From a virus, in IMG/VR virus record IMGVR_UViG_3300042261_001186, positions 62,001 through 126,000 of that record: DNA of 64,000 bases; one strand, given 5' to 3'. How positions within the stretch are numbered: the stretch's first letter is position 1; every line of letters begins with the position of its first letter. Shown here piece by piece: positions 18,406-44,069 of this stretch. The position numbers and the translations under genes are program-made. The notes under the pieces were generated by a model. The model searched no databases. It saw only the letters and a list, made by a program, of their open reading frames with translations, and was not told the origin of the DNA.

Positions 18406-18759
18406 TCAGAACCATTCTATGTCTTCTTCTTTTATTATTTCTTTTGGACCACCCAATATTCTCAGTAATGCTGCTTCTGGATCTTTGTAGCATATATTGT
18501 CTATCATAACATAACCATTAACATCATTGGCACATGCTTGACAAACAAAGAAAACAGCATATCTCTCCTCGGTTTTTGATATATCTTCTTTTACTTGCTC
18601 AATCCAATTATCCCCTGGTTCATCTTTTTCTATGGAAACTTGCATATTTGCTGAATCATAATATATTAACAAGCAATTGTCTTCACCACACTCATTACAC
18701 CTAGAATCTTTGAAAATCAATCCTTCATTTATGAAACTTGAGTATTTCTTTAGTACCAT
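18406..18759 (-). CDS. Cys-rich head-peptide protein with IEW tail (a)
   Basis: The 117-residue protein starts MVLKKYSSFINEGLIFKD, with F-I-N-E|G fitting the presumed cut site. Then come R-C-N-E-C-G-E-D-N-C and F-F-V-C-Q-A-C-A, two CxxC-type pairs that could hold one zinc. It ends K-E-E-D-I-E-W-F. Its ATG lies inside the last codons of the upstream paralogue (10-base overlap), the same seam as in the large arrays. It is a sister of the next gene. Confidence 0.75.
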   Translation of the reverse strand: MVLKKYSSFINEGLIFKDSRCNECGEDNCLLIYYDSANMQVSIEKDEPGDNWIEQVKEDISKTEERYAVFFVCQACANDVNGYVMIDNICYKDPEAALLRILGGPKEIIKEEDIEWF

Positions 18760-19127
18760 TCTATATTTTCATCTTTTATTATTTCTGGTGGTTCGGACAT
18801 TGCTATTATTTTCTTAAGAGCTTTGTATGAATCTTTATATCTTTTACCATCAATCACAACACTTCCACTTGATTCATCTTCACATTCATTGCAAGCATAA
18901 AAAGTATTGTAATTGTTGTTAGTCTCAATATCATTTTTTATGTCATTTAAGGTGATATTTTTCATAGATTGACCATTTGAATTCAAAATTGTACCATCTG
19001 ATTCTATATCGATCTCACCAAGTTTTGTTGACCTATATATTATTACTATAGTATTATTTTCACCACAAACAGAACATTGAGATTTAAATAATCTACTCTC
19101 ATTCAAAAATTCTAGGAAATTCCTCAT
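18750..19127 (-). CDS. Cys-rich head-peptide protein with IEW tail (b)
   Basis: This 125-residue paralogue of the gene at 18406 has the start MRNFLEFLNESRLFKS, Q-C-S-V-C-G-E-N-N-T, F-Y-A-C-N-E-C-E and tail K-D-E-N-I-E-W-Y. The N-E-S-R-L-F-K-S block after the cut site is also present, as N-E-G-R-L-F-K-S, in the protein at 19151, so this head peptide has moved between unrelated bodies. Likely zinc-binding; function unknown. Confidence 0.75.
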   Translation of the reverse strand: MRNFLEFLNESRLFKSQCSVCGENNTIVIIYRSTKLGEIDIESDGTILNSNGQSMKNITLNDIKNDIETNNNYNTFYACNECEDESSGSVVIDGKRYKDSYKALKKIIAMSEPPEIIKDENIEWY

Positions 19128-24458: not shown

Positions 24459-24462
24459 AATT

Positions 24463-24690
24463 ATGATTTTATTTATTGCAGAAGTAATATTGACCATTTT
24501 TGCATGGAGAAATGGTTGGAAATGGTTGGCTTTGATACCAATGGGTGTTATTTTCTTAATTGGTATGATTATTGGTTCTAGTGTGGCTATGTCAGGTGGG
24601 TCAATGGACAATTTAGGAGGTCTCTTTATGTTCGATCTTATGGCTATTGTGGTTTTGATCATTATGGTATGTAAGAAAAGAAAAATTTGA
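24463..24690 (+). CDS. Small membrane protein
   Basis: These 75 residues hold three hydrophobic spans (MILFIAEVILTIFAW; WLALIPMGVIFLIGMIIG; LMAIVVLIIMVC) with a Gly/Ser/Met loop and a basic end KKRKI. It follows YqeY by 4 bases and likely sits in the inner membrane. Function unknown. Confidence 0.65.
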   Translation: MILFIAEVILTIFAWRNGWKWLALIPMGVIFLIGMIIGSSVAMSGGSMDNLGGLFMFDLMAIVVLIIMVCKKRKI

Positions 24691-24716
24691 TAATTCAAAA
24701 AATTGTTGTATCTTTG
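24686..24716 (+). promoter_or_regulatory. Bacteroidetes-type promoter
   Basis: TTTG (24686-24689) and TATCTTTG (24709-24716) with 19 bases between are a near-ideal -33/-7 pair. It drives the 51-residue gene at 24730 and perhaps the RNA cluster behind it. Confidence 0.75.
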
Positions 24717-24729
24717 TTAAAATTATAAA

Positions 24730-24885
24730 ATGAAAAATATAAAACTTTTATTGGCTGGATTAGTGATAGGATTTGTGGTTTCTGAAGCTGTCGTTCAATA
24801 TAAAAAAATGAAAAATGAAAAAGAAATTGAAGACAAGGAAATCAGTGAATTACTCAAGTTGAAAAGAAAATACCCTAAAGTTTAA
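24730..24885 (+). CDS. Small membrane-anchored protein
   Basis: A 51-residue gene: MKNIKLLLAGLVIGFVVSEA forms one N-terminal membrane segment, then a charged helix (KKMKNEKEIEDKEISELL) and a basic end. It has a strong host-type promoter about 14 bases upstream. It resembles short single-span proteins of bacteria; function unknown. Confidence 0.6.
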   Translation: MKNIKLLLAGLVIGFVVSEAVVQYKKMKNEKEIEDKEISELLKLKRKYPKV

Positions 24886-24932
24886 ACTTTTTGGAAATAT
24901 GTGACTATTAAGAGATAATATATAGTAATATA

Positions 24933-25110
24933 TTGTTCTTTGAAAATATTTAAAAATTGTGAAAACGAAAGAACCCAAGACCCCATCGCATAGGGGAGAA
25001 CGCAACCTTAGGAAAAACCGAATGGTGTCGGTAGTCAGAAATGACGAAACTTAAGCAGGCGGATTGAAATGAAGATCCTTAATATTATGTGCGAACTTTT
25101 TTTAAATATT
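24933..25110 (+). ncRNA. Structured RNA A, upstream of tmRNA
   Basis: No ORF covers this stretch and it is far less AT-rich than its surroundings. Visible hairpins are CCCC-N8-GGGG near 24977-24992, ACCGA-N6-TCGGT, GTCA-GAAA-TGAC and GGAT...ATCC. It begins with TTGTTCTTTGAAAATAT, repeated just before the tmRNA, then TGAAAACGA. Later comes CTTAGGAAAAA. The same leader, TGAAAACGA and CTTAGGA blocks recur in the RNA at 35.8 kb, so this is one member of a two-copy RNA family. No known RNA class was recognised. Confidence 0.6.
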
Positions 25111-25115
25111 TTTAA

Positions 25116-25132
25116 TTGTTCTTTGAAAATAT
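25116..25132 (+). promoter_or_regulatory. boxA-like leader repeat before tmRNA
   Basis: TTGTTCTTTGAAAATAT is an exact second copy of 24933-24949 and ends right at the first base of the tmRNA. TGTTCTTTGA resembles the antitermination boxA seen in Bacteroidetes rRNA leaders (from memory). Confidence 0.45.
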
Positions 25133-25531
25133 GGGCTCGTATGGCTTAGACAGCGATGCGAAATAATGAATAAGCAAGTATCGTACTTTCTGTGATACGA
25201 TTAATAAATTGGCAGGAGACAAATAAATGCAAAAACATCAAAAATAGTGTCTGAAGATATGATGAGTATCTTCACTAGCGTGACAGGAAAGGTTTCTGAA
25301 ACCTTTTACGCGAAAGAAAGCGCCGAATTGGCCTTGGCATAACAGGAAAAAATCAGATACTCTGAATATTGGAGAGTTTTAACAGAGGATAAACTAAATT
25401 AAATAATTGATGAATTGACAATTTTTCAGAATACAAATTGTATATGAGTTGATACAGAAATTATCAAATAAACTTGTAGAAATTTTTTAAAATCATTGTT
25501 GGAAGCGGGTTCGAATCCCGCCGAGTCCACA
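25133..25531 (+). ncRNA. ssrA: Transfer-messenger RNA
   Basis: This tmRNA frees stalled ribosomes and tags the unfinished protein for breakdown. The acceptor stem is GGGCTCG (25133-25139) with CGAGTCC (25522-25528); its third pair is G-U, the mark read by alanyl-tRNA synthetase. The T-arm GCGGG-TTCGAAT-CCCGC (25505-25521) is perfect. The 5' side has the short D-like loop (TGGCTTAGACAGCGATGCG). A tag frame at 25310-25342 ends in L-A-L-A-stop. Hairpins before the tag could be the first pseudoknot. The CCA end is not encoded in full. About 399 bases, one piece, not permuted. Confidence 0.9.
25310..25342 (+). other. tmRNA tag reading frame
   Basis: From a GCG resume codon the frame reads A-K-E-S-A-E-L-A-L-A then TAA. 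The small hydrophobic end (LALA) is the kind of degron read by ClpXP. Whether GCG is the exact resume codon is inferred from the length and the stop. Confidence 0.7.
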
Positions 25532-25539
25532 AAAGGAAT

Positions 25540-25636
25540 GACAATTCTGGTTGTGATGTACACATAGATCAGTCAAATCATTCGCGTTTTAAAACGAAAC
25601 CGTGAACATAGCCAAGATAAGGAACGGATAAAATTT
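25540..25636 (+). ncRNA. Possible third structured RNA
   Basis: Between the tmRNA end and a terminator lie about 100 bases with no ORF and a GC level above the local norm. They include TTCGCGTTTTAAAACGAA, which can fold back on itself. It may be the processed 3' trailer of the tmRNA transcript or a separate RNA. No class recognised. Confidence 0.35.
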
Positions 25637-25663
25637 AACCAATCATTTTGATTGGTTTTTTTA
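25637..25663 (+). terminator. Terminator of the RNA cluster
   Basis: AACCAATCA (25637-25645) pairs with TGATTGGTT (25649-25657), followed by seven T. It would end the transcript that holds the tmRNA. Confidence 0.8.
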
Positions 25664-25752
25664 TTTGGAAACATTTAATTAAATTTGCAATGTAGAATTA
25701 AAAACAAGGATGTATATTTTCAAGAAATTATTCTTAACAACTACATTACCAT

Positions 25753-25794
25753 ATGCAAATTCAATATAAAGATGAAAATATAGAATGGGTTTAA
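25753..25794 (+). CDS. Tail-only mini-gene 1 (13 codons)
   Basis: The frame reads M-Q-I-Q-Y-K-D-E-N-I-E-W-V-stop, that is, almost nothing but the IEW tail of the neighbouring genes. The next gene starts 3 bases after its stop. It may be the scar of a deletion between two tail repeats, kept because the tail DNA supplies the next gene's ribosome site, or a real short peptide. Confidence 0.4.
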   Translation: MQIQYKDENIEWV

Positions 25795-25797
25795 ATT

Positions 25798-26094
25798 ATG
25801 TTCAAGAATATTTTAATAACTTTTTTAAAAGATAAGTACCCTAATTTTGATTTCATAATTTTCCCTTGGTCAAAGGATGATATGGATATCATAGAAAAAA
25901 AAGGACTTGGTAGAATGGATCCAAGGTACACAATTAATATGTATTTGGAGCATGCTAGTCAGGTTTATGCTCGTTCATCTAGAGAACAACAGACTGAAAT
26001 TTTGACACTGGCTGTGAATAGAGTGGATAAATTCATAAAAATGAAATGTAAAATAATTGAAGAATATAAAGATGAAAACATAGAATGGGTATAA
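25798..26094 (+). CDS. IEW-tail family protein
   Basis: The 98-residue protein has the array-family order: N-terminal helix, K-Y-P-N-F-D-F-I-I, a turn, strand, then helix (REQQTEILTLAVNRVDKFIK) and the tail Y-K-D-E-N-I-E-W-V. It lies between two tail-only mini-genes. Function unknown; paralogous in shape to the genes at 37-43 kb. Confidence 0.7.
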   Translation: MFKNILITFLKDKYPNFDFIIFPWSKDDMDIIEKKGLGRMDPRYTINMYLEHASQVYARSSREQQTEILTLAVNRVDKFIKMKCKIIEEYKDENIEWV

Positions 26095-26097
26095 ATT

Positions 26098-26145
26098 ATG
26101 TTTAAAGACGATGAATACAAGGATGAAAATATAGAATGGGTATGA
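26098..26145 (+). CDS. Tail-only mini-gene 2 (15 codons)
   Basis: The frame M-F-K-D-D-E-Y-K-D-E-N-I-E-W-V-stop is again only a start plus the IEW tail. Its last 10 bases (ATGGGTATGA) hold the start of the 26136 gene, so it preserves the coupling seam exactly. See mini-gene 1 for readings. Confidence 0.4.
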   Translation: MFKDDEYKDENIEWV

Positions 26146-26447
26146 AAGAGGAATTCCTTAAAAAACTGAAAGAAAAATATGGGTTTGAAAAAATCTCACT
26201 TGATGGTAATGACTTAGTTATAAACAAGAACCCTAAAGCATTGAATGACATTAAAATATGGGTGGATTTGGATTTTGCTAAATATATGATGGAATTGACT
26301 GGTTCCAGCATGGAAATGGAAATAAAATGTCAAATGATACATGTTGATTGGGAACTCAAAAGGATGGATTATTTTTCAGAAAATCCTAAAAGTTGGTGGG
26401 TTGACAAAAAAGATATTTATGAAGATGAAAACATAGAATGGGTATGA
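26136..26447 (+). CDS. IEW-tail family protein
   Basis: This 103-residue protein begins MGMKEEFLKKLKEKYGFEKI; the second Met (26142, ATGA) may be the real start. It has the helix-strand-strand-helix order and ends Y-E-D-E-N-I-E-W-V. It overlaps mini-gene 2 and the next truncated gene by 10 bases at either end. Confidence 0.7.
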   Translation: MGMKEEFLKKLKEKYGFEKISLDGNDLVINKNPKALNDIKIWVDLDFAKYMMELTGSSMEMEIKCQMIHVDWELKRMDYFSENPKSWWVDKKDIYEDENIEWV

Positions 26448-26524
26448 AAATAGCGGATTATTTGTATAAAAAATACTCAAACATCAGTTTCTATATCGTA
26501 GGAAACCGCCACATAAAAGAGTAG
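26438..26524 (+). pseudogene. Truncated IEW-family gene
   Basis: MGMKIADYLYKKYSNISFYI matches the first helix and strand of the family. After 28 codons a TAG ends it with no tail. It looks like the 5' remnant left at the end of this short array. Confidence 0.45.
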
Positions 26525-26548
26525 GAATAAAAAATAAATTTAAATTAT

Positions 26549-27364
26549 ATGGCAAAAAAGAGTGGAAAAGATTTCCAAAGAGAAGTCTTAAATGACCCTG
26601 AATGGGTAAAAGAACATGGTGATGTTGATAAATTTGAGGATATAGATTCGAAAGTTAATACCGAATATTCCTCTAAAAGAAAAGAAAAAACATCACTTAT
26701 AAACAAAAATAGATCTGGTAAATATCAATATGATTCTAGGTCAGCATTAAAAGGTGATACATTAATGTATAAAGGAAAAAAGAAAATAGTTTCTGAATAT
26801 AAAAATTATGATAGTGTAAGAAGCTTATTTAAACCACCTTCCATTTATGATATGAGTAAGTTTATGAAAACTAATGACTCAAACATTAGATATGCATCTG
26901 AACAAAAATTAGATTTTATATCTAATGATACTAAAAATTATTATGATAATTTTTTCAATCAAATCTTCAATGGTCCTAAAATTCACACATTAGAAACAAC
27001 TAATGAACCTATTCCAATTGGTTTTCTGGATTATGATTCTTTTTTAGAATTAATATGTTCTATTGAATTAGGGTTTGCATATAAAGAATTTGGTGTTGAA
27101 AAAATGAAAAATTTTGTTTGTTTGGACAATACAAATAAAAAATATATGAAAGATCTTGATTTAACAAAAGTCATAAACAAAGGTGATATAGTTAAATTAA
27201 GTATTTGGATTGATCCAACAACTAGATATTCTTACCTAATTTACACTTGTAATGATGAACCTATTTACATTCTTTCACAAAGAAAAAATGTTGCAAAAGC
27301 AAATTGTGCCTTTATTCCAAATTCTAAATTTGTAGTAAATGAAAAATCTAGAAAATCCATCTAA
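26549..27364 (+). CDS. Unknown 271-residue protein
   Basis: The N-terminal third is Lys/Ser-rich and polar (KEKTSLINKNRSGKYQYDSR). The C-terminal half is strand-rich (IVKLSIWIDPTTRYSYLIYT). No family recognised. It has no head peptide, DP motif or IEW tail, unlike its neighbours. A strong terminator follows directly. Confidence 0.65.
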   Translation: MAKKSGKDFQREVLNDPEWVKEHGDVDKFEDIDSKVNTEYSSKRKEKTSLINKNRSGKYQYDSRSALKGDTLMYKGKKKIVSEYKNYDSVRSLFKPPSIYDMSKFMKTNDSNIRYASEQKLDFISNDTKNYYDNFFNQIFNGPKIHTLETTNEPIPIGFLDYDSFLELICSIELGFAYKEFGVEKMKNFVCLDNTNKKYMKDLDLTKVINKGDIVKLSIWIDPTTRYSYLIYTCNDEPIYILSQRKNVAKANCAFIPNSKFVVNEKSRKSI

Positions 27365-27366
27365 AC

Positions 27367-27397
27367 AAAAAACCCCCTTAATTGGGGGTTTTTTTAT
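27367..27397. terminator. Bidirectional terminator
   Basis: AACCCCC and GGGGGTT pair around TTAATT, flanked by A- and T-runs. It serves the convergent genes at 26549 and 27394. Confidence 0.85.
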
Positions 27398-28494
27398 TTC
27401 ACCAAATTCTTGAATATCGCTTCTAAAACATTAACAACTATTGAATTTCCTGCCAATTTTATTAATGCACTATCACTCATAGTCCCTTCAACTTTATTAA
27501 AATCACTATCTGTGAACCCCATTAATTTCCAACATTCTCTTGGTATAAGTTGTCTTACTTCACCATTTTCATAAACCTTTATTCTAGATAATGCACCAGT
27601 TGCAGTTATAGTTGGAGATATACTATCAGTATGATAAACCTTATTTTCACTTGCAAAATTTGTATAACCAACTAAATCAAATCCTCTTATACCATTCTTA
27701 GTTTTTTTAGTTTCTATTACACTTGGATAATATTTCTTAAAATCAAAATAATATTTCTTATCAACATTTTTAGACATAATATCACCAATAGTTAAATTAG
27801 TTAATTCATTTTGTTCTGGAATAATATATTCTTGATCATCTATTATAGAAACCATATAAGCTCTTTCTCTATTCTGTGGTATATCAAAATAAGAAGCTTT
27901 CAATTTGAAATCATAATTCCTATATCCTAATTTTGTGAGATTCTCTTTCCAAGTTTCAAATCCTGTTTTGTGTTTATCACTCATTATTGATGCGACATTT
28001 TCCATTAATAAATATTTTGGTAATCTATTTTCAACTTTTAATTCATTAAGTAGTCTATCTACTTGCCACAATAAAGAACTTGATTTACCTTCAAATAAAC
28101 CTCTACCACTTCCTTGGTTACTTAAATCCTGACATGGAAATGAATATGTTAATAAATCATGGTCTGGCATATCAGTTGATTTGAAATCTAATATGGAACC
28201 AAGATTGTTTATGTTTTTATTAGAGACATAAAGTTTCTTTGCTTTTTCAAAATTCATTTTATCAGTATTTGTAGGTGTTTTAGTATCTAAAGAAAATGTA
28301 AATTTTTTAAGATAATCATATATTTCTTCTTTTGAATCTGTAGTTTCTTCATATGAATGATGGACAAGGTTATATGACATTATGGCATTGACATCCCATT
28401 CTGATACTGCAACTACTTCAAAGTCAGCTTTTATATTTTTAAGTGCTTTGTGTTGAGAACCAATACCAGCAAATAATTCAATTACTTTTATCAT
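27394..28494 (-). CDS. C5-cytosine DNA methyltransferase
   Basis: This 366-residue enzyme moves a methyl from S-adenosylmethionine to C5 of cytosine. Motif I is E-L-F-A-G-I-G-S (about residues 6-13), motif IV F-P-C-Q-D-L-S with catalytic Cys near 121, motif VI M-E-N-V near 164-167, motif VIII Q-N-R-E-R-A-Y near 207-213, motif X G-N-S-I-V near the end. The long gap between motifs I and IV holds an extra helical insert. The target site cannot be read. It probably protects phage DNA from restriction. A Vsr-like nuclease at 48.4 kb may be a functional partner. Confidence 0.9.
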   Translation of the reverse strand: MIKVIELFAGIGSQHKALKNIKADFEVVAVSEWDVNAIMSYNLVHHSYEETTDSKEEIYDYLKKFTFSLDTKTPTNTDKMNFEKAKKLYVSNKNINNLGSILDFKSTDMPDHDLLTYSFPCQDLSNQGSGRGLFEGKSSSLLWQVDRLLNELKVENRLPKYLLMENVASIMSDKHKTGFETWKENLTKLGYRNYDFKLKASYFDIPQNRERAYMVSIIDDQEYIIPEQNELTNLTIGDIMSKNVDKKYYFDFKKYYPSVIETKKTKNGIRGFDLVGYTNFASENKVYHTDSISPTITATGALSRIKVYENGEVRQLIPRECWKLMGFTDSDFNKVEGTMSDSALIKLAGNSIVVNVLEAIFKNLVK

Positions 28495-28535
28495 AAAATA
28501 TTTTTTATTTTATATAAATAATTTCAAGAGGAAAG

Positions 28536-28546
28536 TTTAATATATA
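28536..28546 (+). promoter_or_regulatory. Late-type promoter box
   Basis: TTTAATATATA ends exactly 5 bases before the ATG at 28552. Confidence 0.55.
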
Positions 28547-28551
28547 GTGAT

Positions 28552-28818
28552 ATGATTAAACTATTTGAGGAATTTAATAAAAAGAAAGAAATAGACCCTT
28601 CAGATGCTTCTAAATGGAAAGTTGGAGATACAATTATTTGTACAAACAAAGGTAGAGGTAAAAGATTAGAAATAGGAAAAGAATATAAGATATTTGACAT
28701 AACTAAACCTTCTGGACAAGCAGTAATGATAAAAGGAGATTATACTTATTATAGTACAAAATATTTTATTAAGAAATTCAAAGATAAAATAAAAGAAGAA
28801 GACATAGAATGGTTCTAA
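28552..28818 (+). CDS. SH3-like small protein with IEW tail
   Basis: The 88-residue protein opens MIKLFEEFNKKKEIDPSDAS, a head-peptide-like start plus a worn form of the DP motif (D-P-S-D-A-S-K-W). The body is one SH3-like unit of the polyprotein type: K-V-G-D-T-I-I-C-T-N, G-K-E-Y-K-I-F, A-V-M-I-K-G-D-Y. It ends K-E-E-D-I-E-W-F, and the next gene starts inside this tail. Confidence 0.7.
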   Translation: MIKLFEEFNKKKEIDPSDASKWKVGDTIICTNKGRGKRLEIGKEYKIFDITKPSGQAVMIKGDYTYYSTKYFIKKFKDKIKEEDIEWF

Positions 28819-29348
28819 ATTATAAAAAATATAATGAATCTATTTACGAAGATTTTAAAATTGGTGATAGAGTCATCACGAAAGATTTATGGAAATTTAG
28901 TAATAAGTATGCAACTATTGTAAGGATAGATCATGGTGGTGATAAATATTGTATAGAATTTGATGAATTTATTGATGGACATAGTTGTTCAGGTAAGGGG
29001 AAAAAAGGACATTGTACTAATGCAAGTATTAAAAATTTAATTAAAATTGAAAAAGAAGAACCTATAAAAGAAGAAGATATAGAATGGTTTGAATCACTTA
29101 AACCAATGAATGAAAGTTTTGAGATAGGTGACATAGTGGTTTGCTTGGAGACAAAGAATGACAATAAAGGTAGGTTGAATTTCTTGGAAGGTAAAGAATA
29201 TCAATTGTTAAGGGGAATGGGAGACAAATATTTGTTTATTCAAGGGGAACAGAGAAACCTTGAATTATTTAGAAAAGATACTATACACAAATATTTTAAA
29301 AAAGTTGATATAAGTAATATAAAAGAAGAAGATATAGAATGGTTCTAA
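28809..29348 (+). CDS. Two-module SH3-like protein with inner and terminal IEW motifs
   Basis: The 179-residue chain holds two SH3-like units (F-K-I-G-D-R-V-I-T and F-E-I-G-D-I-V-V-C). The first ends K-E-E-D-I-E-W-F-E-S and runs straight on into a head-peptide-like K-P-M-N-E|S, then the second unit ends K-E-E-D-I-E-W-F-stop. It looks like two adjacent array genes fused where the overlap seam used to be, showing how the polyproteins nearby could arise. Confidence 0.75.
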   Translation: MVLNYKKYNESIYEDFKIGDRVITKDLWKFSNKYATIVRIDHGGDKYCIEFDEFIDGHSCSGKGKKGHCTNASIKNLIKIEKEEPIKEEDIEWFESLKPMNESFEIGDIVVCLETKNDNKGRLNFLEGKEYQLLRGMGDKYLFIQGEQRNLELFRKDTIHKYFKKVDISNIKEEDIEWF

Positions 29349-29692
29349 ATTATAAACAATTTAATGAAGGTAGATTTAATCCTTTTAGAAAAAAAATAAA
29401 TAATTTTATACCAAAACCACCAAAGTTTGTTAAACATTCAGATATAGATCCATATGGGGAAGAAGATTGGAATGATGGTAAATATCAAATGGGTGAAGAT
29501 CTTGTTGCTGTTAGAAATTTATATTATACCAAAGATGATGCCCCATTAATAACTAAAAACAAAGTATATAAAATCATAGATAAATTTGTGGAATATGAAC
29601 ATATAAGATATACTTTTATAAGTGATAAGGGGATAGAACACACATTGACAGAGGATTCAATGAAATTGAATTTTAAAAAGATACCACTTTAA
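29339..29692 (+). CDS. Head-peptide protein with DPYGEEDW motif
   Basis: This 117-residue product starts MVLNYKQFNEGRF (N-E|G), then a Pro-rich stretch, then D-I-D-P-Y-G-E-E-D-W-N-D near residue 40, followed by a strand-rich unit. Its start lies inside the IEW tail of the gene before (10-base overlap). The two motif types thus coexist in one coupled operon. Its end overlaps the convergent 29673 gene by 20 bases. Confidence 0.7.
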   Translation: MVLNYKQFNEGRFNPFRKKINNFIPKPPKFVKHSDIDPYGEEDWNDGKYQMGEDLVAVRNLYYTKDDAPLITKNKVYKIIDKFVEYEHIRYTFISDKGIEHTLTEDSMKLNFKKIPL

Positions 29693-30002
29693 AGTCTTTC
29701 CTATATATTTTGGCATATTTATTAGGAAAATCATATTTAGATTTTATCACAATATAATCATCTTTTATTTCTACAACATTAACAATATAAAGTCTTTCTT
29801 TTTCCATAGTAGAGGTTCCTTCAATTTTATCATATAAATTTCCAGTATCATCATTCCAGACTGGTGAATAAAAAATTAATTTTATATCATTAAGTGGTAC
29901 TATTTCATTTTCTCCTCTAACGACAACATCATCATCCCAATTTTCTTCATCAAATGGGTCATTCTCATTATATTGTTCAAATGTTTTAATCTTTGATTTC
30001 AT
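29673..30002 (-). CDS. Head-peptide protein with DPFDEENW motif
   Basis: A 109-residue protein: MKSKIKTFEQYNENDPFDEE then N-W-D-D-D, so head peptide and DP motif are fused at the N-terminus (N-E|N-D-P). The rest is a strand-rich SH3-like unit (ERLYIVNVVEIKDDYIVIKS). It is the last unit of the minus-strand polyprotein run and its start overlaps the previous module by 17 bases. Confidence 0.7.
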   Translation of the reverse strand: MKSKIKTFEQYNENDPFDEENWDDDVVVRGENEIVPLNDIKLIFYSPVWNDDTGNLYDKIEGTSTMEKERLYIVNVVEIKDDYIVIKSKYDFPNKYAKIYRKDFKVVSF

Positions 30003-30288
30003 ATTGATTGTCTTTTAGTTTAAAATAAAAGTTATTAGCTTTGAATATTGTATATTTTCCAGGTTCTGTGTAATTTACAATTTCATGGTTTGTTTTTTCA
30101 TATTTTTTAATTACTTCAGCATTCAAATATTCTAAATAATAAATTTTAGTGTATTCAATATGACGACTTCTTTCACAATCATCTATAGTTTTATAAAATT
30201 CAATATTAACAAGTCCTTTTACATATACATGTTTTGGATTATCATCCCAATTCTCTTCATCATAAGGATCTAATTCATTGTATACAGA
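29986..30288 (-). pseudogene. Polyprotein module cut off by an in-frame TAA
   Basis: Directly after the TAA that ends the 30289-31134 gene, the same frame stays open for 100 codons: S-V-Y-N-E-L-D-P-Y-D-E-E-N-W-D-D, then a strand-rich module ending Y-E-I-K-D. There is no start codon near its beginning. It is therefore the former C-terminal module of that polyprotein, now separated by one nonsense codon, or expressed by readthrough. Confidence 0.55.
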
Positions 30289-31134
30289 TTAATTTAAACC
30301 AAATTCTCCTTTAAGAAACATAATTCCATTTCTATAATAACTATTTCTATTTGGATTTTTATCAAAAAATTCCTCTGCATCATTTCTAATAATTTCTATT
30401 ATTTCTTCTTTAGTTAACCAATGTCCTTTCCAAGCATATTGAGGTTTAATTTTAGGCCAAGATTCTTCTCCCCAATTCTCTTCATTATATGGGTCTATTT
30501 CATTGGATTCATTAACTATTCTATCAAAATGAATATCAAAATCATATTTAGCAAAAACATATTTATATGGGTGTCCTTGTACAATTCCTATCATAACAAT
30601 ATATTGATTATCTTCTTTGAAAATTTCATAATCTCTGTTACTGTGGAATATCCAATGTAAACCATTAGTAGTATGAACATCTCTTTTACAATGAGCATAA
30701 TGTTTTTTGTCTTCATCCCAATTCTCTTCATCATAAGGATCTATTTCATTATGTGTACTTTCAATGAAAAGTTCAGGATTTTCCATATATTTACCATTTT
30801 TAAGGTCATTAAAAGAGTTTTTGAGATATATCCTATTTAAGGAATAGTAGATTTCATGAATGAAATCCTGTTTTTGGTTCGGTGTCAATCCAATTGTATC
30901 AGACAATGAATCTAGGTAATGCTTTGTTTTTATGTAAACTTCAGTTTTATCGATTGTAGTCATGTATTCTTCTTGAAGATCGAATAGACCTTTTATTTCA
31001 TCATCATTCAAACCTATTCTCCTAAGCCAATTTACTAATCTTTCTTTATATCGTCTTGGTTCATATTGACTTTCCCTCCAATTTTCTTCATTGTAAGGAT
31101 CTATTTCATTGAAATCTTCAAATAGTTTAATCAT
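30289..31134 (-). CDS. Polyprotein with three DP motifs
   Basis: The 281-residue chain starts MIKLFEDFNEIDPYNEENW (head peptide fused to motif 1). A helical module (W-L-R-R-I-G-L-N-D-D-E-I-K-G-L-F) ends F-I-E-S-T-H-N-E-I-D-P-Y-D-E-E-N-W (motif 2). A strand module ends I-V-N-E-S-N-E-I-D-P-Y-N-E-E-N-W (motif 3), then a short end. The helical module is also found in the 835-residue neighbour (W-L-R-K-I-G-L-D-E-D-E-I-K-D-L-F), so modules are shared. Function unknown. Confidence 0.7.
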   Translation of the reverse strand: MIKLFEDFNEIDPYNEENWRESQYEPRRYKERLVNWLRRIGLNDDEIKGLFDLQEEYMTTIDKTEVYIKTKHYLDSLSDTIGLTPNQKQDFIHEIYYSLNRIYLKNSFNDLKNGKYMENPELFIESTHNEIDPYDEENWDEDKKHYAHCKRDVHTTNGLHWIFHSNRDYEIFKEDNQYIVMIGIVQGHPYKYVFAKYDFDIHFDRIVNESNEIDPYNEENWGEESWPKIKPQYAWKGHWLTKEEIIEIIRNDAEEFFDKNPNRNSYYRNGIMFLKGEFGLN

Positions 31135-31367
31135 TTCTTTATAAAATACTTTTTAGTCTCCTCATCACTGAAAAGTAATTCTTTACCCCTATCATTAAAA
31201 ACAGAATTAAAATGTTGTTTAGTATATTGAGCAGGAACTATTCTATCTATCATATAAGTATTACCTTTTGTAAAATTAAAATAAAACTCTTTAGCAATTA
31301 GTAAATCACCTTCATTATAAGTTTCATCACCCCATTCTTCTTCATTGAAAGGGTCTACTTCACTAAT
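31131..31367 (-). pseudogene. Out-of-frame polyprotein module
   Basis: Just past the end of the 835-residue polyprotein the +1 frame opens with I-S-E-V-D-P-F-N-E-E-E-W-G-D and runs 78 codons to a TGA that overlaps the next ATG (ATGA). No start codon precedes the motif. It is most simply the missing last module of the polyprotein, put out of frame by a one-base change, or reached by frameshifting. Confidence 0.55.
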
Positions 31368-33870
31368 TCACATTTGGTTTCATATAATTTAATGTCTTAT
31401 CCAATTTTTCTTTATCTAAATATTTTTCTATTTCTTCTTCGGTGGCTCTCCTGTGCCATCTATCATCATAGTTTGTTTGGCAAGTTGGTACTTTTCCTTT
31501 GTTTGGAGACCTTTTGTCAACTTCCCATATGTACCTTCTGCTAGCAACACCATTGTAGTGCATATGTAGGACAACATGAATCATAGGTTTACATTGGCCA
31601 AAACCGACTATGAAAGGGGAATACATAATGTAAAAAAATTCTTCATCATCATCCCAATCATCTTCACCATATGGGTCAACTTCACTATATACTGATTCTT
31701 TGAACATTTCTGGTTTATCTATATATCTTCCACCTTTTAAATACAACCAATGATTGTTTACATAAAGTCTATATAAACTTCCAAAAATATCTGTTAAAAA
31801 TTGTAATCTAGGATTACCATCAGTTAATATTGAACCATATAAATCTAATTTATCTGCTAATGTATCAACATATTTCCTGAACCTATCATATGCTATGTCA
31901 TATGGACTATTTTCTTTATTATAATAAAGTTCATATTCTTTAAAAAGATCTTTTATTTCATCTTCATCAAGTCCTATTTTTCTTAACCAATCTATGACTT
32001 TTTCATCTTTTCCTTTAGGTATATAATTATATTTCCAATTTTCTTCTTCAAATGGGTCAACATCACTATGATTTTCATTTATTCTTTTTGTGAAACGTGG
32101 ATCAGTGTACCCACCATCATACCAATAATGATCTTTATTTTTTATTTTTATCATTAATACGCCTTCGTCATTCACATACTTGTTTTCTATTTCATAGATA
32201 TCTTTATTATTGAAATAACTATTAGGTGTTGCTAACCATTTAACTTTGTCACCTATTTTAAAATTATCATAATCTATGTCATCCCAATCTTCTTCATTAT
32301 AAGGATCTACTTCTTCTTTGTTTTCATTTATAACATTTAAAATTGTGAATGAACTAATAGGTATTTCATAAAATTCCATTTCTCCTGCTGTTTTAAATTT
32401 ATCAAAAGTGAATTCAATATAATCTCCTTTTTGTTCAGTTATATTAATAATATATTTTTGATTTCTGTTTAAATGTAGATAATTGCCACCATGATAATAT
32501 ACATAAAAATCCTGGTCTTGATTATTCCAGTTGTATCTATAGGCAGGTGTTTCTTGATCTTTCAACATTAAAATTTCACATTCTCCAATAGGTATTTCAA
32601 CATCATTCCAATCTTCTTCACTATATGGGTCTACATCTAAATGACTTTCATTTATTATTTTGGTAAAATAATTACCTATATTACCATAATGGAAAATTAC
32701 TCTAGCATTAGCATCATTCCTCACATAAAGATAATGATCTGGATGTAGTTTACTAAGTTCAATTACTTCATATGTCTTACCTACATAAAAATGTAACCCT
32801 CCTATTTGTCTGATACATTTCAATTTGTCACCGACTTTGTATGTTGGTCCATATTCCCAGTTATCAACATCATCTATTTTTTTACCTAAAACCCACCATT
32901 TATCATTACTTTCATTGAGTTTTTTGATAAATAATTCAGGATGCCAACCTCTGTCAATATCAAATTTATTATTTTTCTTAACTGGTTCTACATTAATATA
33001 ATATGTTTTAAATCCATGTGGTTTATAAACATCAAGTACAACATAATCATATCCTTTTTGTAAATATTTTGGTCCCATATTATGTCCATCAATACAAGTG
33101 ACTATATCACCTATATCAAAAGGACCTTTTTCTTCTATTTCATTCCAATCTTCTTCACTAAATGAATCGACATCCAAATGTGATTCATTGAGTTTCTTTT
33201 TTTGTAATTTGAAATCGAATTCAACAAGTTCCCACTTTTCAATCCACCTACCTTGACTGATAAAGTATTTTATAGTTTTGTAATATTCTGGGTCCCTTAT
33301 TTCCTTTATTTCCCCCATATATACACCATCCCAATCATAAATTATATCTCCTATGTTTATTTCAGTATCTATATTTATTTCAGATATTTCTTCATTTCCA
33401 TCCCAATTATCCTCACCTAATGGATCAATATCCAAATGTGATTCAAGTAAATCTTCAATCCAATCTTCTTCACCATATGGATCATTTTCACTTATTACTG
33501 AAGTTGGTTTTATCAATATGTCATCTAAATTCAAAAACCTTTCACGTATGGTTCCATATCTACTTTTGTAATTTATTCTTATGGGGTATTTAATTAAATG
33601 TGTTGACCCTACTTCTTTATCTTTAGTTTTTTCAAAAGAAATTGGAATTATTTTTTCATCAACAAAAAGTCTTATGTTATGTCTGTCCACAGGGTGTTCT
33701 TTACCATAAAAATGAACTTCTTCTAATGTAAAATTTTCATTTAAATAATATATGACTTTATCCAAATCTCCAAACTTATCATAAATGTCCATTATCTTGA
33801 CTTTCATAACTCGTTCTTTGTCAAAATCAAAACTTAATTGAGTTTCATATGTTTTGAAACGTTTAATCAT
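31363..33870 (-). CDS. 835-residue polyprotein with seven DP motifs
   Basis: After a head-peptide-like start (MIKRFKTYETQ) and a 115-residue first domain, modules of 80-120 residues follow. DP motifs lie near residues 130, 149, 235, 414, 522, 604 and 732, most preceded by L-N-E-S-H, I-N-E-S-H, I-N-E-N or S-E. Several modules are SH3-like: I-G-D-I-V-T-C, G-x-x-Y-x-V, W-x-x-x-x-F-I-K-K-L-N-E. Each L/I-N-E|S/N junction resembles the head-peptide cut site, so the chain could be cleaved into separate small proteins. No enzyme motif is seen. Confidence 0.75.
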   Translation of the reverse strand: MIKRFKTYETQLSFDFDKERVMKVKIMDIYDKFGDLDKVIYYLNENFTLEEVHFYGKEHPVDRHNIRLFVDEKIIPISFEKTKDKEVGSTHLIKYPIRINYKSRYGTIRERFLNLDDILIKPTSVISENDPYGEEDWIEDLLESHLDIDPLGEDNWDGNEEISEINIDTEINIGDIIYDWDGVYMGEIKEIRDPEYYKTIKYFISQGRWIEKWELVEFDFKLQKKKLNESHLDVDSFSEEDWNEIEEKGPFDIGDIVTCIDGHNMGPKYLQKGYDYVVLDVYKPHGFKTYYINVEPVKKNNKFDIDRGWHPELFIKKLNESNDKWWVLGKKIDDVDNWEYGPTYKVGDKLKCIRQIGGLHFYVGKTYEVIELSKLHPDHYLYVRNDANARVIFHYGNIGNYFTKIINESHLDVDPYSEEDWNDVEIPIGECEILMLKDQETPAYRYNWNNQDQDFYVYYHGGNYLHLNRNQKYIINITEQKGDYIEFTFDKFKTAGEMEFYEIPISSFTILNVINENKEEVDPYNEEDWDDIDYDNFKIGDKVKWLATPNSYFNNKDIYEIENKYVNDEGVLMIKIKNKDHYWYDGGYTDPRFTKRINENHSDVDPFEEENWKYNYIPKGKDEKVIDWLRKIGLDEDEIKDLFKEYELYYNKENSPYDIAYDRFRKYVDTLADKLDLYGSILTDGNPRLQFLTDIFGSLYRLYVNNHWLYLKGGRYIDKPEMFKESVYSEVDPYGEDDWDDDEEFFYIMYSPFIVGFGQCKPMIHVVLHMHYNGVASRRYIWEVDKRSPNKGKVPTCQTNYDDRWHRRATEEEIEKYLDKEKLDKTLNYMKPNVN

Positions 33871-33875
33871 AAACC

Positions 33876-33886
33876 TATATATTAAA
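33876..33886 (-). promoter_or_regulatory. Late-type promoter box
   Basis: TTTAATATATA on the minus strand, 5 bases before the ATG at 33870 of the large polyprotein. Confidence 0.55.
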
Positions 33887-33946
33887 TTTTTTAAAGAACT
33901 TTTTTAATTTTATATATACATATAATAAAAAATAATCAATTTAATT

Positions 33947-34240
33947 ATGTATATCTGGAACGACATTATATCACGCGATAAGCATTCTAAAATATTTGAA
34001 GTGGACATAAATCAATATAATCCTAATGATCCTGATTTCCCAAATAGACATTTTGTTGGATTTAAAAATGGTATAGTTAAAATGACAGAAGAAGAAATAG
34101 TTGAAAGAATAAAAAATGGGGAAACCTTCTATACACTTGATAAAAGTGCTAAGGTTTTAATTTATGATGAAAAACATATTATTTCTAAAAAAGATAAAAA
34201 ATTGGATAATAATATAAATAGATTACCATTAATGGATTAA
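33947..34240 (+). CDS. Unknown 97-residue protein
   Basis: It starts MYIWNDIISRDKHSKIFEVD, with a middle helix T-E-E-E-I-V-E-R-I-K and strands around it, ending in a Lys/Asn-rich tail. It is the only plus-strand gene between two minus-strand polyproteins, and its stop touches the end of the 34241 gene. No family recognised. Confidence 0.6.
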   Translation: MYIWNDIISRDKHSKIFEVDINQYNPNDPDFPNRHFVGFKNGIVKMTEEEIVERIKNGETFYTLDKSAKVLIYDEKHIISKKDKKLDNNINRLPLMD

Positions 34241-34519
34241 TCACAATTTATTGGTATTTTCTTTTATAATTTTTTTAACTACATCCAATTGTTTCTGATA
34301 ATCATTTTCATCAAAAAACCATTCATCATCAAACCCAAATTTCTTATTCAAAATATTATTTATAGAATCTATATCTAATGTTAAATTACCATCTCTATCT
34401 ATATAGTTTTTATATTTTAGGAAAGAAAATACTCTGAACAATTCTGAAAAAGAATCAACATAATCTAAATCTCTAACATTAAAGAGATCTTCTAGTAAAA
34501 ATAATTTTAAATGTTTCAT
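34241..34519 (-). CDS. Small acidic protein with head-peptide-like start
   Basis: The 92-residue protein starts MKHLKLFLLEDLFN, with LFLLE|D resembling the cut site. It is largely helical and acidic with an aromatic cluster (FGFDDEWFFDENDY). It follows the 394-residue polyprotein by 14 bases on the same strand. Function unknown. Confidence 0.65.
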   Translation of the reverse strand: MKHLKLFLLEDLFNVRDLDYVDSFSELFRVFSFLKYKNYIDRDGNLTLDIDSINNILNKKFGFDDEWFFDENDYQKQLDVVKKIIKENTNKL

Positions 34520-34533
34520 ATATTTTCTTTTTT

Positions 34534-35718
34534 TTAGTCTTCCAAATTATCTTCTCCCAATGGATCTATATCTGAATGTTCAAATCCAAAAGGTTCATAA
34601 GACAAACAATTATCATGTCTACTGAATCCAGTCATTTTACCATAATCCCCCAATGCTTTACAAGAATACATTGGACTACTTCCCCTAAGGAATTTATGTG
34701 GACTATTGTCATATGTTGTTATGTCTGTTATTTTCCACAAGGTGTTTCTATAATTGTCTTTGGCTTTGCTGTCATCTTCAATTATTCCACTATCATAAGC
34801 ATTCCTACCTTTGAAATATACTACATCCCCAATCTTGAATTTAGGTATTGGAAATTCAGCACTTTCATTTGTTTTCTTTAAAAAGACACCATCTAAAGTT
34901 TCTTGATAAAAACCATTATATTTAGGACTATCATCATCCCAATTCTCTTCACCTAAAGGATCTACATCTATATGATTTTCATTTAATTTTTTCTTAGCAA
35001 ATCTTTCCTTTGCCCAAAATTTGTCAATACCTCTAATTTTCAGAAATTCATGTCCTAATCCAAATTTTTCAGTGTCCACAACCTCATAATCTTTACCAGT
35101 TTTCAACAAATTTTCTGTTCCCCTCGGTACATTGGATTCATAATCATTTACACAAGTCACAATGTCACCAATTTCTATATTACTTAAATCATAATCATTC
35201 CAATCTTCTTCTTCAAAAGGATCAATTTCTGTGTGACTTTCATTCAATTGTTTCCTAATAAACCTATTATTGTTCCAATATCTATTCAAACAACCATCTA
35301 TATCTAATATGACATGTTTACCATCTAGGTGAACTTCTAATACTTCATAATCATCACCATGATATAGTATATCATCAGAACCTGCACTATTTATACAGGT
35401 CAATATATCACCTCTTCTGAATGGATTGTCATCATCCCAATTTTCTTCACCAAGTGGATCTACTTCATTATGATTTTCATTCAATATTTTTTTGAATCTA
35501 GATGGGTCCCAATAACCATCATCACCTTTGATTTTTATTGTTGGTTCACCTATAAAAATAACTATATCATCTACTATATATTGTTGATTTTTAAATAATC
35601 TTATTCCGTCATAAGTACCTCTAACACAAATAACAGAATCACCAACTTCTATTTCATCCCAATTTTCTTCATTATATGGATCTATTTCTGAGTGAAAATT
35701 TTCAAAAGATTTTATCAT
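34534..35718 (-). CDS. 394-residue SH3-repeat polyprotein with five DP motifs
   Basis: Start MIKSFENFHSEIDPYNEENW, then four SH3-like units, each reading G-D-x-V-x-C, a G-K/N-x-Y-x-V strand, an I-K/D strand, W-x-x-x-R-F and then K-x-L-N-E-[N/S]-H. Every unit is separated by D-P-L-G-E-E-N-W or D-P-F-E-E-E-D-W. The chain ends D-I-D-P-L-G-E-D-N-L-E-D, so motif copies cap both ends. The unit after the fourth motif differs (VYFKGRNAYDSGIIEDDSKA). Beads on a string, cut or uncut, is the natural picture. Confidence 0.75.
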   Translation of the reverse strand: MIKSFENFHSEIDPYNEENWDEIEVGDSVICVRGTYDGIRLFKNQQYIVDDIVIFIGEPTIKIKGDDGYWDPSRFKKILNENHNEVDPLGEENWDDDNPFRRGDILTCINSAGSDDILYHGDDYEVLEVHLDGKHVILDIDGCLNRYWNNNRFIRKQLNESHTEIDPFEEEDWNDYDLSNIEIGDIVTCVNDYESNVPRGTENLLKTGKDYEVVDTEKFGLGHEFLKIRGIDKFWAKERFAKKKLNENHIDVDPLGEENWDDDSPKYNGFYQETLDGVFLKKTNESAEFPIPKFKIGDVVYFKGRNAYDSGIIEDDSKAKDNYRNTLWKITDITTYDNSPHKFLRGSSPMYSCKALGDYGKMTGFSRHDNCLSYEPFGFEHSDIDPLGEDNLED

Positions 35719-35723
35719 AAACC

Positions 35724-35734
35724 TATATATTAAA
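35724..35734 (-). promoter_or_regulatory. Late-type promoter box
   Basis: TTTAATATATA on the minus strand, 5 bases before the ATG at 35718. Confidence 0.55.
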
Positions 35735-35776
35735 TATTATTTTGGAAAAATGAGATTAAAAATAAATAATATATAA

Positions 35777-35808
35777 TTTGGTAGATATAAATATTTGTTG
35801 TATATTTG
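35777..35808 (+). promoter_or_regulatory. Bacteroidetes-type promoter for RNA D
   Basis: TTTG (35777-35780), 20 bases, then TATATTTG (35801-35808). This is a full -33/-7 pair; transcription should begin near 35812-35816. The stretch TTGTTGTAT-TTTGT is shared with the promoter at 24.7 kb. Confidence 0.8.
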
Positions 35809-35814
35809 TATTGA

Positions 35815-36048
35815 AATGTGTTCTTAAAAATATTGAAGATTTAAATTGACTGAAAACGACAAGCTTGGAAACAAGTGATGACACTGAACTTAGGAGAAAA
35901 CTGCGGTCTTGTACGGTTTTTTGTGATTAACCGGTGGTCAAGAGGTTCCTGGAATTGCCTTAACTGCCAGCGTTAGTAGTAAAACGAAAACTTACTATAT
36001 GGGAAAATTTTTCCTTGTTACAGCGGAAACTCACAAACTGGCTGTAAC
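35815..36048 (+). ncRNA. Structured RNA D, relative of RNA A
   Basis: About 234 bases with no ORF, a perfect promoter in front and a strong terminator at the end. It shares with RNA A a leader (TGTTCTTAAAAATATT here), then TGAAAACGA, a GNRA-type hairpin (CTTG-GAAA-CAAG), and CTTAGGAGAAAA. Further hairpins use TAGTA...TACTA and GGAAAA-TTTTTCC. It is longer than RNA A after the CTTAGGA block. A regulatory or packaging RNA is possible; no known class was recognised. Confidence 0.7.
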
Positions 36049-36054
36049 TTTTTT
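36017..36054 (+). terminator. Terminator of RNA D
   Basis: GTTACAGC (36017-36024) pairs with GCTGTAAC (36041-36048), followed by six T. The loop of 16 bases is long for a terminator, so it may also be a functional RNA stem. Confidence 0.75.
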
Positions 36055-36640
36055 ATTTTACCAAAGGACCATTTGGATGTAATTTCACTTCTCTATCTAC
36101 AGACCCATCTATGTAAGTTTTACCTTTCATTTGAGTTTGCATTGTTATGTTATAAGTTTTTGGATTCACTTTTTCAAATATGACTATAACCGTGTAAAGT
36201 GAAGCATCTTTTGATTTTATCATAACTCTACTCTGATTTCTTATTTGATTTGTGTCTATCATAAAAGTTATGTGATTTATATTATTGTAAATTATATTAA
36301 TTCCTTCAAATGGTCCAGGAGTGAGATATCTATCTGCTTCATATTCTTTTCTTAGGAATTTAACATACCAATGTTGTGTTGTATATAAATCATAATTGAT
36401 AGATCTTATTTGTCCAGTTTTTTCATTTTTATAACTTCCAATAAAAGGATTTATCTCATCTAACTTTTTTTCAACAATATTTTCAATTTCCCTTAGTTTC
36501 ATTTTATTTTCACTTGAAATAATAGTATCTTTATTATAATATTTAAAGTCAAATTGCTCTAAAATATAATCCCAATAAGGTCCATTTATAACCTGAATTA
36601 TGACATTATTTTTAATAAAACTATTGTATTCTAGTAACAT
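36053..36640 (-). CDS. Unknown 195-residue protein
   Basis: Start MLLEYNSFIKNNV is like a head peptide without the final Glu. The body has a W-Y-V-K-F-L-R-K-E-Y segment and a strand-rich second half (GINIIYNNINHITFMIDT). A TTTAATATATA box lies about 20 bases upstream on the same strand. No family recognised. Confidence 0.65.
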   Translation of the reverse strand: MLLEYNSFIKNNVIIQVINGPYWDYILEQFDFKYYNKDTIISSENKMKLREIENIVEKKLDEINPFIGSYKNEKTGQIRSINYDLYTTQHWYVKFLRKEYEADRYLTPGPFEGINIIYNNINHITFMIDTNQIRNQSRVMIKSKDASLYTVIVIFEKVNPKTYNITMQTQMKGKTYIDGSVDREVKLHPNGPLVK

Positions 36641-36673
36641 TGAAAATAATTTGTTTTTGTTATATATTAAATT

Positions 36674-36702
36674 TTTTAATCAACATTTATCGATTATCTT
36701 TG
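36674..36702 (+). promoter_or_regulatory. Bacteroidetes-type promoter
   Basis: TATCTTTG at 36695-36702 with T-rich sequence at the -33 position. It sits 18 bases before the ATG at 36721 and starts the long plus-strand array. Confidence 0.6.
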
Positions 36703-36720
36703 TATATAATTATAAAAACT

Positions 36721-36879
36721 ATGTTAAAAGTAGAAGGACATTTTCTAAATATTTTTGCAAATGAATTCTCTTTAGGAGTGTATACTTTGAATGGAGAAGA
36801 TGAAACTGGGTACTTTAGATCTATTAACATAGGATTTATAATATTTGAATTAAACATTTTTAATTACCCTGAATTATGA
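36721..36879 (+). CDS. Small protein at the head of the array
   Basis: The 52-residue protein (MLKVEGHFLNIFANEFSLGV...) is mostly strands. The promoter at 36695-36702 rules out upstream Met codons, fixing this start. Its stop overlaps the next ATG by 4 bases (ATGA). Function unknown. Confidence 0.6.
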   Translation: MLKVEGHFLNIFANEFSLGVYTLNGEDETGYFRSINIGFIIFELNIFNYPEL

Positions 36880-37265
36880 CAAAAGAAGAATTAGATGAAA
36901 AAATCAATGAACTTAAACGTTCACATTATGAATTGATAAGTTCAATCGAAGAAGATATCAAACTCGAAGAAGAACTTTGGGAAGATACTGATATTAGTGA
37001 TAAATTGGACATATGTCCTAAACAAATGAGACAAATGAGAAATCATTATGTTCCACTCTCAGATATGTATCCTGATATAAAAATTATAAATATACCACCT
37101 GACAATGGTGGACAACCTTCTAAAGATGATTTTGTAAAAAAAATTATGCTTCAACTTTATACTGAAAGAATGCAGTTAAAGAAAAAAATTGAAGAAGGTG
37201 AAAGAATCCTAAAATACAACAACGAATTACTTAAGAACTCTGATCCAAATGGTGATTGGGATTAA
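36876..37265 (+). CDS. Unknown coiled-coil protein
   Basis: The 129 residues have an N-terminal helix (EELDEKINELKRSHYELISS), a central C-P-K-Q-M-R-Q-M and Pro-rich loop, and a C-terminal helix (LYTERMQLKKKIEEGERILK). Two helices bracketing a loop suggest an antiparallel hairpin. It comes just before the IEW-tail array but lacks the tail, ending D-P-N-G-D-W-D, a possible worn DP motif. Confidence 0.65.
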   Translation: MTKEELDEKINELKRSHYELISSIEEDIKLEEELWEDTDISDKLDICPKQMRQMRNHYVPLSDMYPDIKIINIPPDNGGQPSKDDFVKKIMLQLYTERMQLKKKIEEGERILKYNNELLKNSDPNGDWD

Positions 37266-37277
37266 TATTTAAAATTA

Positions 37278-37580
37278 ATGGAACTCAGTAGTTATCAGAT
37301 AAAAGCTATTTTAAGACACATACCAGGTATTTTACATGTATTGTATTTGGGGAATAATAAATATGTTTTCAATTACAAAAAAGAAAATGGTACAAGTTAT
37401 CAAACTAGAATGATTATTCAAAAAAAACAATATGTACCAATTCATCTTAGACATTTGAGTATGGAATCTCTTTTTTTTGTAAAAACAGAAATTGAAAGAA
37501 GTGTTAGAAAACATATAGAGATGCGTAATATTTTTGGAAGAAAAGAAGAGTATAAAGAGGAGAACATAGAATGGATGTAG
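37278..37580 (+). CDS. IEW-array protein 1
   Basis: The 100-residue protein opens the tightest part of the array. Order: helix (SYQIKAILRHIPGIL), strands (HVLYLGNNKYVFNYK), strand, helix (FFVKTEIERSVRKHIEM), tail E-Y-K-E-E-N-I-E-W-M-TAG. Bases GAGGAG in the tail codons are the ribosome site of the next gene, whose ATG lies in the Glu-Trp codons. Confidence 0.75.
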   Translation: MELSSYQIKAILRHIPGILHVLYLGNNKYVFNYKKENGTSYQTRMIIQKKQYVPIHLRHLSMESLFFVKTEIERSVRKHIEMRNIFGRKEEYKEENIEWM

Positions 37581-37822
37581 GTATTTACAAACCAAAAGAT
37601 ATGTATTATGGATTGGATTCTGTTAAAATAAAAAAAGTAGTTTATTTTTTAAGAGATCAACATGATTGGACCAATAGGAAATTCAAGACTTATGAAGATT
37701 GTTTGGAATTCAAAACACATTTCAGTAGTGATGTGTGGGATGAATTTGTTAAATATTTAGAGAAATATCAAAACATAACTATTATAGAGAAAATCAAAGA
37801 GGAGGATATAGAATGGCTTTGA
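37571..37822 (+). CDS. IEW-array protein 2
   Basis: The 83-residue product starts MDVGIYKPKDMYYGLDSVKI and carries a W-T-N-R-K-F-K-T-Y-E-D-C block. The last helix is unusual in the family (SSDVWDEFVKYLEKYQNITI). Tail E-K-I-K-E-E-D-I-E-W-L. Overlap with both neighbours is 10 bases. Confidence 0.75.
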   Translation: MDVGIYKPKDMYYGLDSVKIKKVVYFLRDQHDWTNRKFKTYEDCLEFKTHFSSDVWDEFVKYLEKYQNITIIEKIKEEDIEWL

Positions 37823-39780: not shown

Positions 39781-39824
39781 TAATTATACCTAGATTATTA
39801 GCATTTACATTTAAAAAACACAAA

Positions 39825-40034: not shown

Positions 40035-40040
40035 TATATA
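40030..40040 (+). promoter_or_regulatory. Late-type promoter box
   Basis: GTTAATATATA, 5 bases before the ATG at 40046; it overlaps the stop of the AtpZ-like gene. Confidence 0.5.
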
Positions 40041-40045
40041 CTTCT

Positions 40046-40896: not shown

Positions 40897-40907
40897 AACT
40901 AAAAAAT

Positions 40908-41138: not shown

Positions 41139-41154
41139 AAATTCATAAACATTT

Positions 41155-41165
41155 TTTAATATATA
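41155..41165 (+). promoter_or_regulatory. Late-type promoter box
   Basis: TTTAATATATA ends 5 bases before the ATG at 41171, which selects that codon over the ATG at 41165. Confidence 0.55.
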
Positions 41166-41170
41166 TGGTT

Positions 41171-44064: not shown

Positions 44065-44069
44065 ATTAT

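Follow-up and report, generated by a model that had tools for sequence, protein, structure and literature searches.

Tail-only mini-genes, possible scars of cassette exchange, in an accessory island of a huge phage with a dispersed peptide tag

The window analyzed here, a stretch of 64,000 nucleotides corresponding to positions 62,001 to 126,000 of the IMG/VR virus record IMGVR_UViG_3300042261_001186, holds a compact run of very small and medium-sized frames that share a C-terminal tail, YKDENIEWV (Table 1). Mini-gene 1 is the first frame 3′ of a tmRNA gene and of a terminator-like hairpin, and its stop codon lies 3 nt before the ATG of a 98-aa gene. The start of that gene and the start of mini-gene 2 have the junction TAAATTATGTTYAAR in common, and the gene that follows mini-gene 2 could begin either at 26136, inside the mini-gene tail (giving 103 aa), or at 26142, overlapping its stop codon (101 aa). 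The run ends in a head-only frame of 26 codons if read from 26444 or 28 if read from 26438. These two mini-genes are the only orphan tails, each with an ATG no more than 6 codons from the tail; all other C-terminal tails sit on longer frames, including a tail at 38666 that ends a 47-codon fragment of a broken gene. ARAGORN's tag for the tmRNA, GKNQIL, looks wrong, and a frame at 25310-25342 that reads AKESAELALA before its stop codon fits a tmRNA tag better; this ending is unlike YKDENIEWV, and the idea of a link between the tail and the tmRNA tag was dropped.

Table 1. Features of the mini-gene locus and of the other tailed-gene groups, in window coordinates
Feature	Position	Strand	Description	Basis
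Two tailed genes	18406..19127	-	N-termini like the T4-type capsid targeting sequence (CTS)	
Accessory island	24459..49605		Between yqeY-like gene (24009-24458) and DHFR-like gene (49606-50121)	
tmRNA gene	25133..25532	+		Rfam RF00023, 69.9 bits; ARAGORN
Terminator-like hairpin with T run	about 25639-25665		Between tmRNA gene and mini-gene 1	Read from sequence
Mini-gene 1	25753..25794	+	13 codons plus stop, MQIQYKDENIEWV; M-QIQ-YKDENIEWV	Translation
43-nt direct repeat, left copy	25763..25805	+	Tail, stop, ATT, ATGTTCAA	Repeat search
98-aa gene	25798..26094	+	Ends in YKDENIEWV; between the two mini-genes	
43-nt direct repeat, right copy	26063..26105	+		Repeat search
Mini-gene 2	26098..26145	+	15 codons plus stop, MFKDDEYKDENIEWV; M-FKDDE-YKDENIEWV	Translation
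103/101-aa gene	26136..26447	+	Ends in YEDENIEWV	
Head-only frame	26438..26524	+	M(GM)KIADYLYKKYSNISFYIVGNRHIKE, early stop; begins inside preceding tail	
Tailed genes	28552..29692	+	Next gene's start inside tail; one internal fused copy KEEDIEWFESLKPMNES	
835-aa repeat protein	31363..33870	-	DPxxEE(D/N)W at the seams between domains; [LI]NE precedes several copies	
Tailed-gene array	37278..39780	+	Successive genes start inside previous tail	
Broken array member	about 38351-38698	+	Head (26 codons), middle and tail each in a different frame	
Three tailed genes	43155..44064	+	Two are clear paralogues	

The sequence-only reading had described this interval as two tail-only frames, of 13 and 15 codons, interleaved with full-length members of a gene family, and a third frame consisting of the family's N-terminal part. 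Translation finds the two frames and their interleaving exactly as described. The notion of a family holds for the tail and fails for the bodies, among which tail-stripped comparison detects similarity for three pairs only (43484/43777, 37813/39197 and 38082/38351), and the third frame is a family head by position but not by sequence, its similarity to other tailed-gene heads being not significant in the same comparison. The body of the 98-aa gene has no detectable homologue in an IMG/VR protein search or among the other tailed genes once tails are stripped, and a single-protein search of IMG/VR found no relative of the 101-aa gene, whose stripped body likewise resembles none of the others; nor did such searches find relatives of the 271-aa and HD-domain proteins. 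Since the tail-stripped bodies are mostly not detectably related, the tail is a tag shared by different bodies and not the end of one family.

Across the whole 130,397-base record a motif scan returned 23 forward matches to the tail and none in a reversed-protein control, so the motif is not due to chance; about 24 copies are present in all, in same-strand groups at 18.4-19.1, 28.5-29.7, 37.3-39.8 and 42.3-44.1 kb and at the mini-gene locus. The tail is a C-terminal tag and a gene junction at once. With genes taken from simple ORF calls, as for all gene counts given here, 18 tailed genes are 80 aa or longer; in 12 of these the next gene starts within the last 12 bases of the tail, and in all 12 overlaps the embedded start is fixed at base -10, as GAATGG (ATG) or, once, GAGTGG (GTG); untailed genes overlap the next gene in 16 of 129 cases, never at -10. 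The arrangement resembles translational coupling through overlapping stop and start codons, in that a gene begins within its predecessor's last codons or overlaps them. It differs in that the overlap always falls on the same base of a conserved peptide tag, borne by genes whose bodies are mostly unrelated. Ile is encoded by ATA in 20 of 21 copies of the tail, whereas the genome-wide share of this codon is 54% (p 4.5e-5). The embedded start therefore has an A at -3, where A promotes initiation in Flavobacterium johnsoniae (PMC6847099). Shared ancestry of the tails could account for the bias at least in part. A GDSL-type lipase/acylhydrolase gene (42598-43158) has its start within a tail and lies among tailed genes. 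The idea of an acidic C-terminal tip like that of SSB was rejected, as internal and N-terminal copies of the motif do not fit it; an AlphaFold model of a tailed protein (pLDDT 46) was too poor to use.

The record belongs to a Mahaphage-type huge phage of Bacteroidota, with LR756501 (735 kb), the largest known phage, as the nearest complete relative: dozens of window genes are collinear between the two, and a DNA polymerase part is 72.8% identical over 98%. LR756501 belongs to the Mahaphage clade, with Bacteroidetes as predicted hosts (PMC7162821). The genes that flank the accessory island are collinear with those of LR756501 at about 50-80% identity, and 1.8 kb occupies the place of the 25-kb island there (tblastn collinearity and the LR756501 ORFs of that stretch). 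LR756501 has neither YKDENIEWV tails nor mini-genes. A class-A (YKDENIEWV-type) tail pattern had no match in IMG/VR, and searches of IMG/VR, of the genome collection and of eight related phage records, which may not have included near-identical records, gave no such tail beyond chance matches. Matches that were taken as chance comprise three IMG/VR contigs from a looser tail pattern, where the match is a 9-codon stop-to-stop frame, four genome contigs with the pattern inside unrelated proteins, and one match in LR756504. Queries with the yqeY-like and helicase genes found no copy of the island boundary in 30 DPYGEEDW contigs and returned one helicase match. The island also encodes a C-5 cytosine DNA methylase (27394-28494) and a Vsr-type mismatch endonuclease (48367-48834).

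The mini-genes on their own are a small curiosity that points to a larger pattern, and the broader finding is a dispersed tag. A second form, DPYGEE(D/N)W, occurs in the record at the C-terminus of small genes beside YKEENIEW ones, behind N-termini and between repeated domains. Its exact DNA pattern was found at 69 loci in IMG/VR, a broader protein pattern giving 232 matches, and the motif is dispersed over many unrelated proteins of one huge-phage group, which comprises LR756501 (L117-L131) and IMG/VR loci L009-L077. The exact pattern matches LR756501 59 times and a reversed control not at all; seven other phage records, including a Lak phage and three further Mahaphages, have no match. At the protein level LR756501 has 113 motif copies, spread over 95 frames. 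Of these, 42 are C-terminal and 23 lie close to the N-terminus, and the shortest C-terminally tagged frame is 55 aa long. The tagged proteins include a 1178-aa protein (L120:4866-8402, minus strand) that combines a cytidine-deaminase-like part with a tRNA nucleotidyltransferase with HD domain and has four motif copies between its parts; an acetyltransferase; a methyltransferase; and an S77-protease-like protein. A 177-aa S77 prohead-protease-like protein (L117:11317-11850, minus strand; below the Pfam cut-off) ends in DPYGEENW, and a separate frame of ~811 aa in the same phage holds an S77-like stretch. The literature searched yielded no published description of the motif and a single match, a yeast peptide, and the tag apparently represents a wider, undescribed tagging system that is used about a hundred times in LR756501.

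Such a tag is comparable, by analogy only, to the cargo-loading and encapsulation peptides of encapsulins and bacterial microcompartments. There, as here, one short motif recurs on many proteins that are otherwise unrelated, terminally or between their domains; the tag differs from these peptides in sequence. A pattern [FY]xx[FY][ILVM]xE at residues 4-8 is found in 50 of 971 genes of LR756501 and 16 of 170 genes here, the pattern starting at residues 3-8 and occurring almost nowhere else in the first 60 residues, and it fits the CTS of phage T4, in which residues 4 and 7 direct targeting and residues 8 and 10 processing (PMC9026906). When the CTS pattern is relaxed, the number of CTS-like genes that are tagged exceeds expectation both in LR756501 (27 versus 10.8 expected, p 9e-7) and in this record (21 versus 11.2 expected, p 1e-4); the 98-aa gene, the 101-aa gene and the mini-genes all lack a CTS-like N-terminus. 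Peptidase_S77-like stretches are encoded by this record and by four complete Mahaphages, with E values of 1e-6 to 1e-4 that all fall below the Pfam cut-off. In view of this enrichment and of the prohead-protease-like gene, the tag may mark cargo for the phage head. In T4 the CTS belongs to the internal proteins IPI-IPIII and Alt, from which it is cut by the gp21 prohead protease (PMC9026906, PMC7411985). The present system resembles it in the CTS-type pattern at some N-termini and in the enrichment of the tag among such genes, and would also do so in a putative cognate protease, the S77-like stretch; but the T4 signal is N-terminal and removed, whereas the tag stands at the C-terminus, internally or directly after the CTS and reads DPYGEEDW or EENIEW. 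The giant phage SPN3US packages many different head proteins, with protease cleavage at an xxE motif (PMC7411985, PMC10052503). The present phages would resemble it in having many different proteins in the head of a large phage; the passages on the SPN3US head ejection proteins mention no common DPYGEEDW-like tag. If the tag does direct delivery, it could reveal which members of the large uncharacterized proteome of a huge phage share a route. A capsid polyprotein cut at every seam was also considered and is only partly borne out, [LIVM]NE standing no more than 12 residues before the motif in 9 of 43 copies in this record and 2 of 90 in LR756501. A second repeat protein, at 34534-35718 on the minus strand, has the motif at its domain seams, as does the 835-aa protein; in these repeat proteins [LI]NE stands before several copies, as it would in a polyprotein cut by a protease, and this pattern is much rarer in LR756501.

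Several features of the locus speak to how the mini-genes arose. The 98-aa gene is flanked by two 43-nt direct repeats that are 93% identical and exactly 300 nt apart, each made up of tail, stop, ATT and ATGTTYAA; their three differences are in third positions and silent in the frames in which they fall, and loss of one 300-nt repeat unit would join mini-gene 1 directly to mini-gene 2. Truncated heads begin at the position of the tail-embedded start not only at 26438 but also at 38351, where a 26-codon head follows a tail at 38328 and matches its neighbor at 38082 (E 1e-5 to 3e-5), and at 18438, where the last tail of the minus-strand group runs into a 9-codon stub, MVLKKYLSV. We posit, at a probability only slightly better than even (about 0.55), that the mini-genes are scars of cassettes, left by genes that were swapped in and out at the tag. 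On this account YKDENIEWV would be a local form of the C-terminal tag, whose DNA also supplies the next gene's start (gaATGG), and tagged genes would be accessory cassettes joined head to tail at tag junctions. All junctions share one short sequence (43 nt, 93% around the 98-aa gene), so that recombination or slippage between them could add, remove or truncate gene bodies. A mini-gene would be what remains where a body is missing, namely a start with a handful of codons, followed by the tag and the junction to the next gene, and the head-only frame would be the complementary leftover; the remaining junctions would keep downstream genes translated, and the tag would, with less certainty, mark the proteins as cargo, probably for the phage head. 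The analysis shows the frames and the repeats, the constant register in which the embedded start falls, the other truncated heads and the absence of the island from the nearest relative; that bodies were lost rather than gained, and by recombination, is what we infer. Repeated recombination between seams had been proposed in the sequence-only reading, and the 43-nt repeats, the truncated heads inside tails and the missing island lend it circumstantial support. Against the scar reading, searches of IMG/VR, the genome collection and eight related phage records turned up neither an unoccupied site nor a donor copy, nor any sister phage that carries this array. The tail-embedded start also offers a concrete route for stringing together and exchanging tagged accessory genes.

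Scars of this kind are favored by the absence of any motif-tailed frame below 55 aa among the 95 motif-bearing frames of LR756501 and by the start of mini-gene 1, whose context score (trained on 126 genes) equals the median of all ATGs and falls at the 7th percentile of gene starts. The constant -10 register, the conservation of the tail on mostly unrelated bodies and the ATA bias point the same way. Scores for the 98-aa gene and mini-gene 2 are as low as that of mini-gene 1, which may reflect dependence on coupling, and where genes are coupled the score may be blind to the distinction between real and unreal starts. These weak independent contexts also fit a rather unlikely alternative, in which the mini-genes are leader frames of a translational relay, kept because ribosomes ending on a tail restart on the next gene; the peptide would be irrelevant, and the genes so served would be the 98-aa gene (by mini-gene 1) and the 101-aa gene (by mini-gene 2). 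Stop/start spacing and overlap at both mini-genes, the systematic tail-embedded starts of tailed genes and the A that the ATA bias puts at -3 are all in keeping with a relay, but the start of mini-gene 1 is itself poor and most arrays do without such a leader. A leader, moreover, needs no peptide, yet the mini-gene 1 and 2 tails differ at four positions, the stop codon included, and all four differences are silent. The neutral probability of this pattern is about 0.0004-0.0024, depending on transition bias. It is the pattern expected of peptides under selection and hence counts against scars, as does the nearby ATG of each orphan tail; it supports a coding constraint, possibly one that predates the loss of the bodies and acted on the tails of full genes.

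Silent-only divergence, together with a tag that is intact in both mini-genes and used at scale in the clade, would be explained if the 13- and 15-residue products were made as free tag peptides that bind or titrate the tag's binder and so tune the delivery of tagged proteins; the sequence-only reading, too, had allowed for peptides that are made and act. We consider this unlikely, as no mini-genes occur among the 95 motif-bearing frames of LR756501 and no binding partner of the tag is known; DPYGEEDW-type tail-only pieces in contigs L029 and L035 were rejected as mini-genes, for they look like frameshifts in A-runs. More doubtful still is the comprehensive proposal that a huge-phage clade tags ~1/10 of its genes, that this one short acidic-aromatic tag (DPYGEEDW/EENIEW) sends proteins with nothing else in common to the same place, probably the phage head, and that the mini-genes make free peptides that titrate the tag receptor. 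Least credible to us is inert decay, in which the mini-genes are random broken copies without a role whose frames are open by luck: a frame of mini-gene length stays open easily, and broken genes lie nearby, but the tag is exact in both copies, which differ only silently, and the next gene begins within mini-gene 2.
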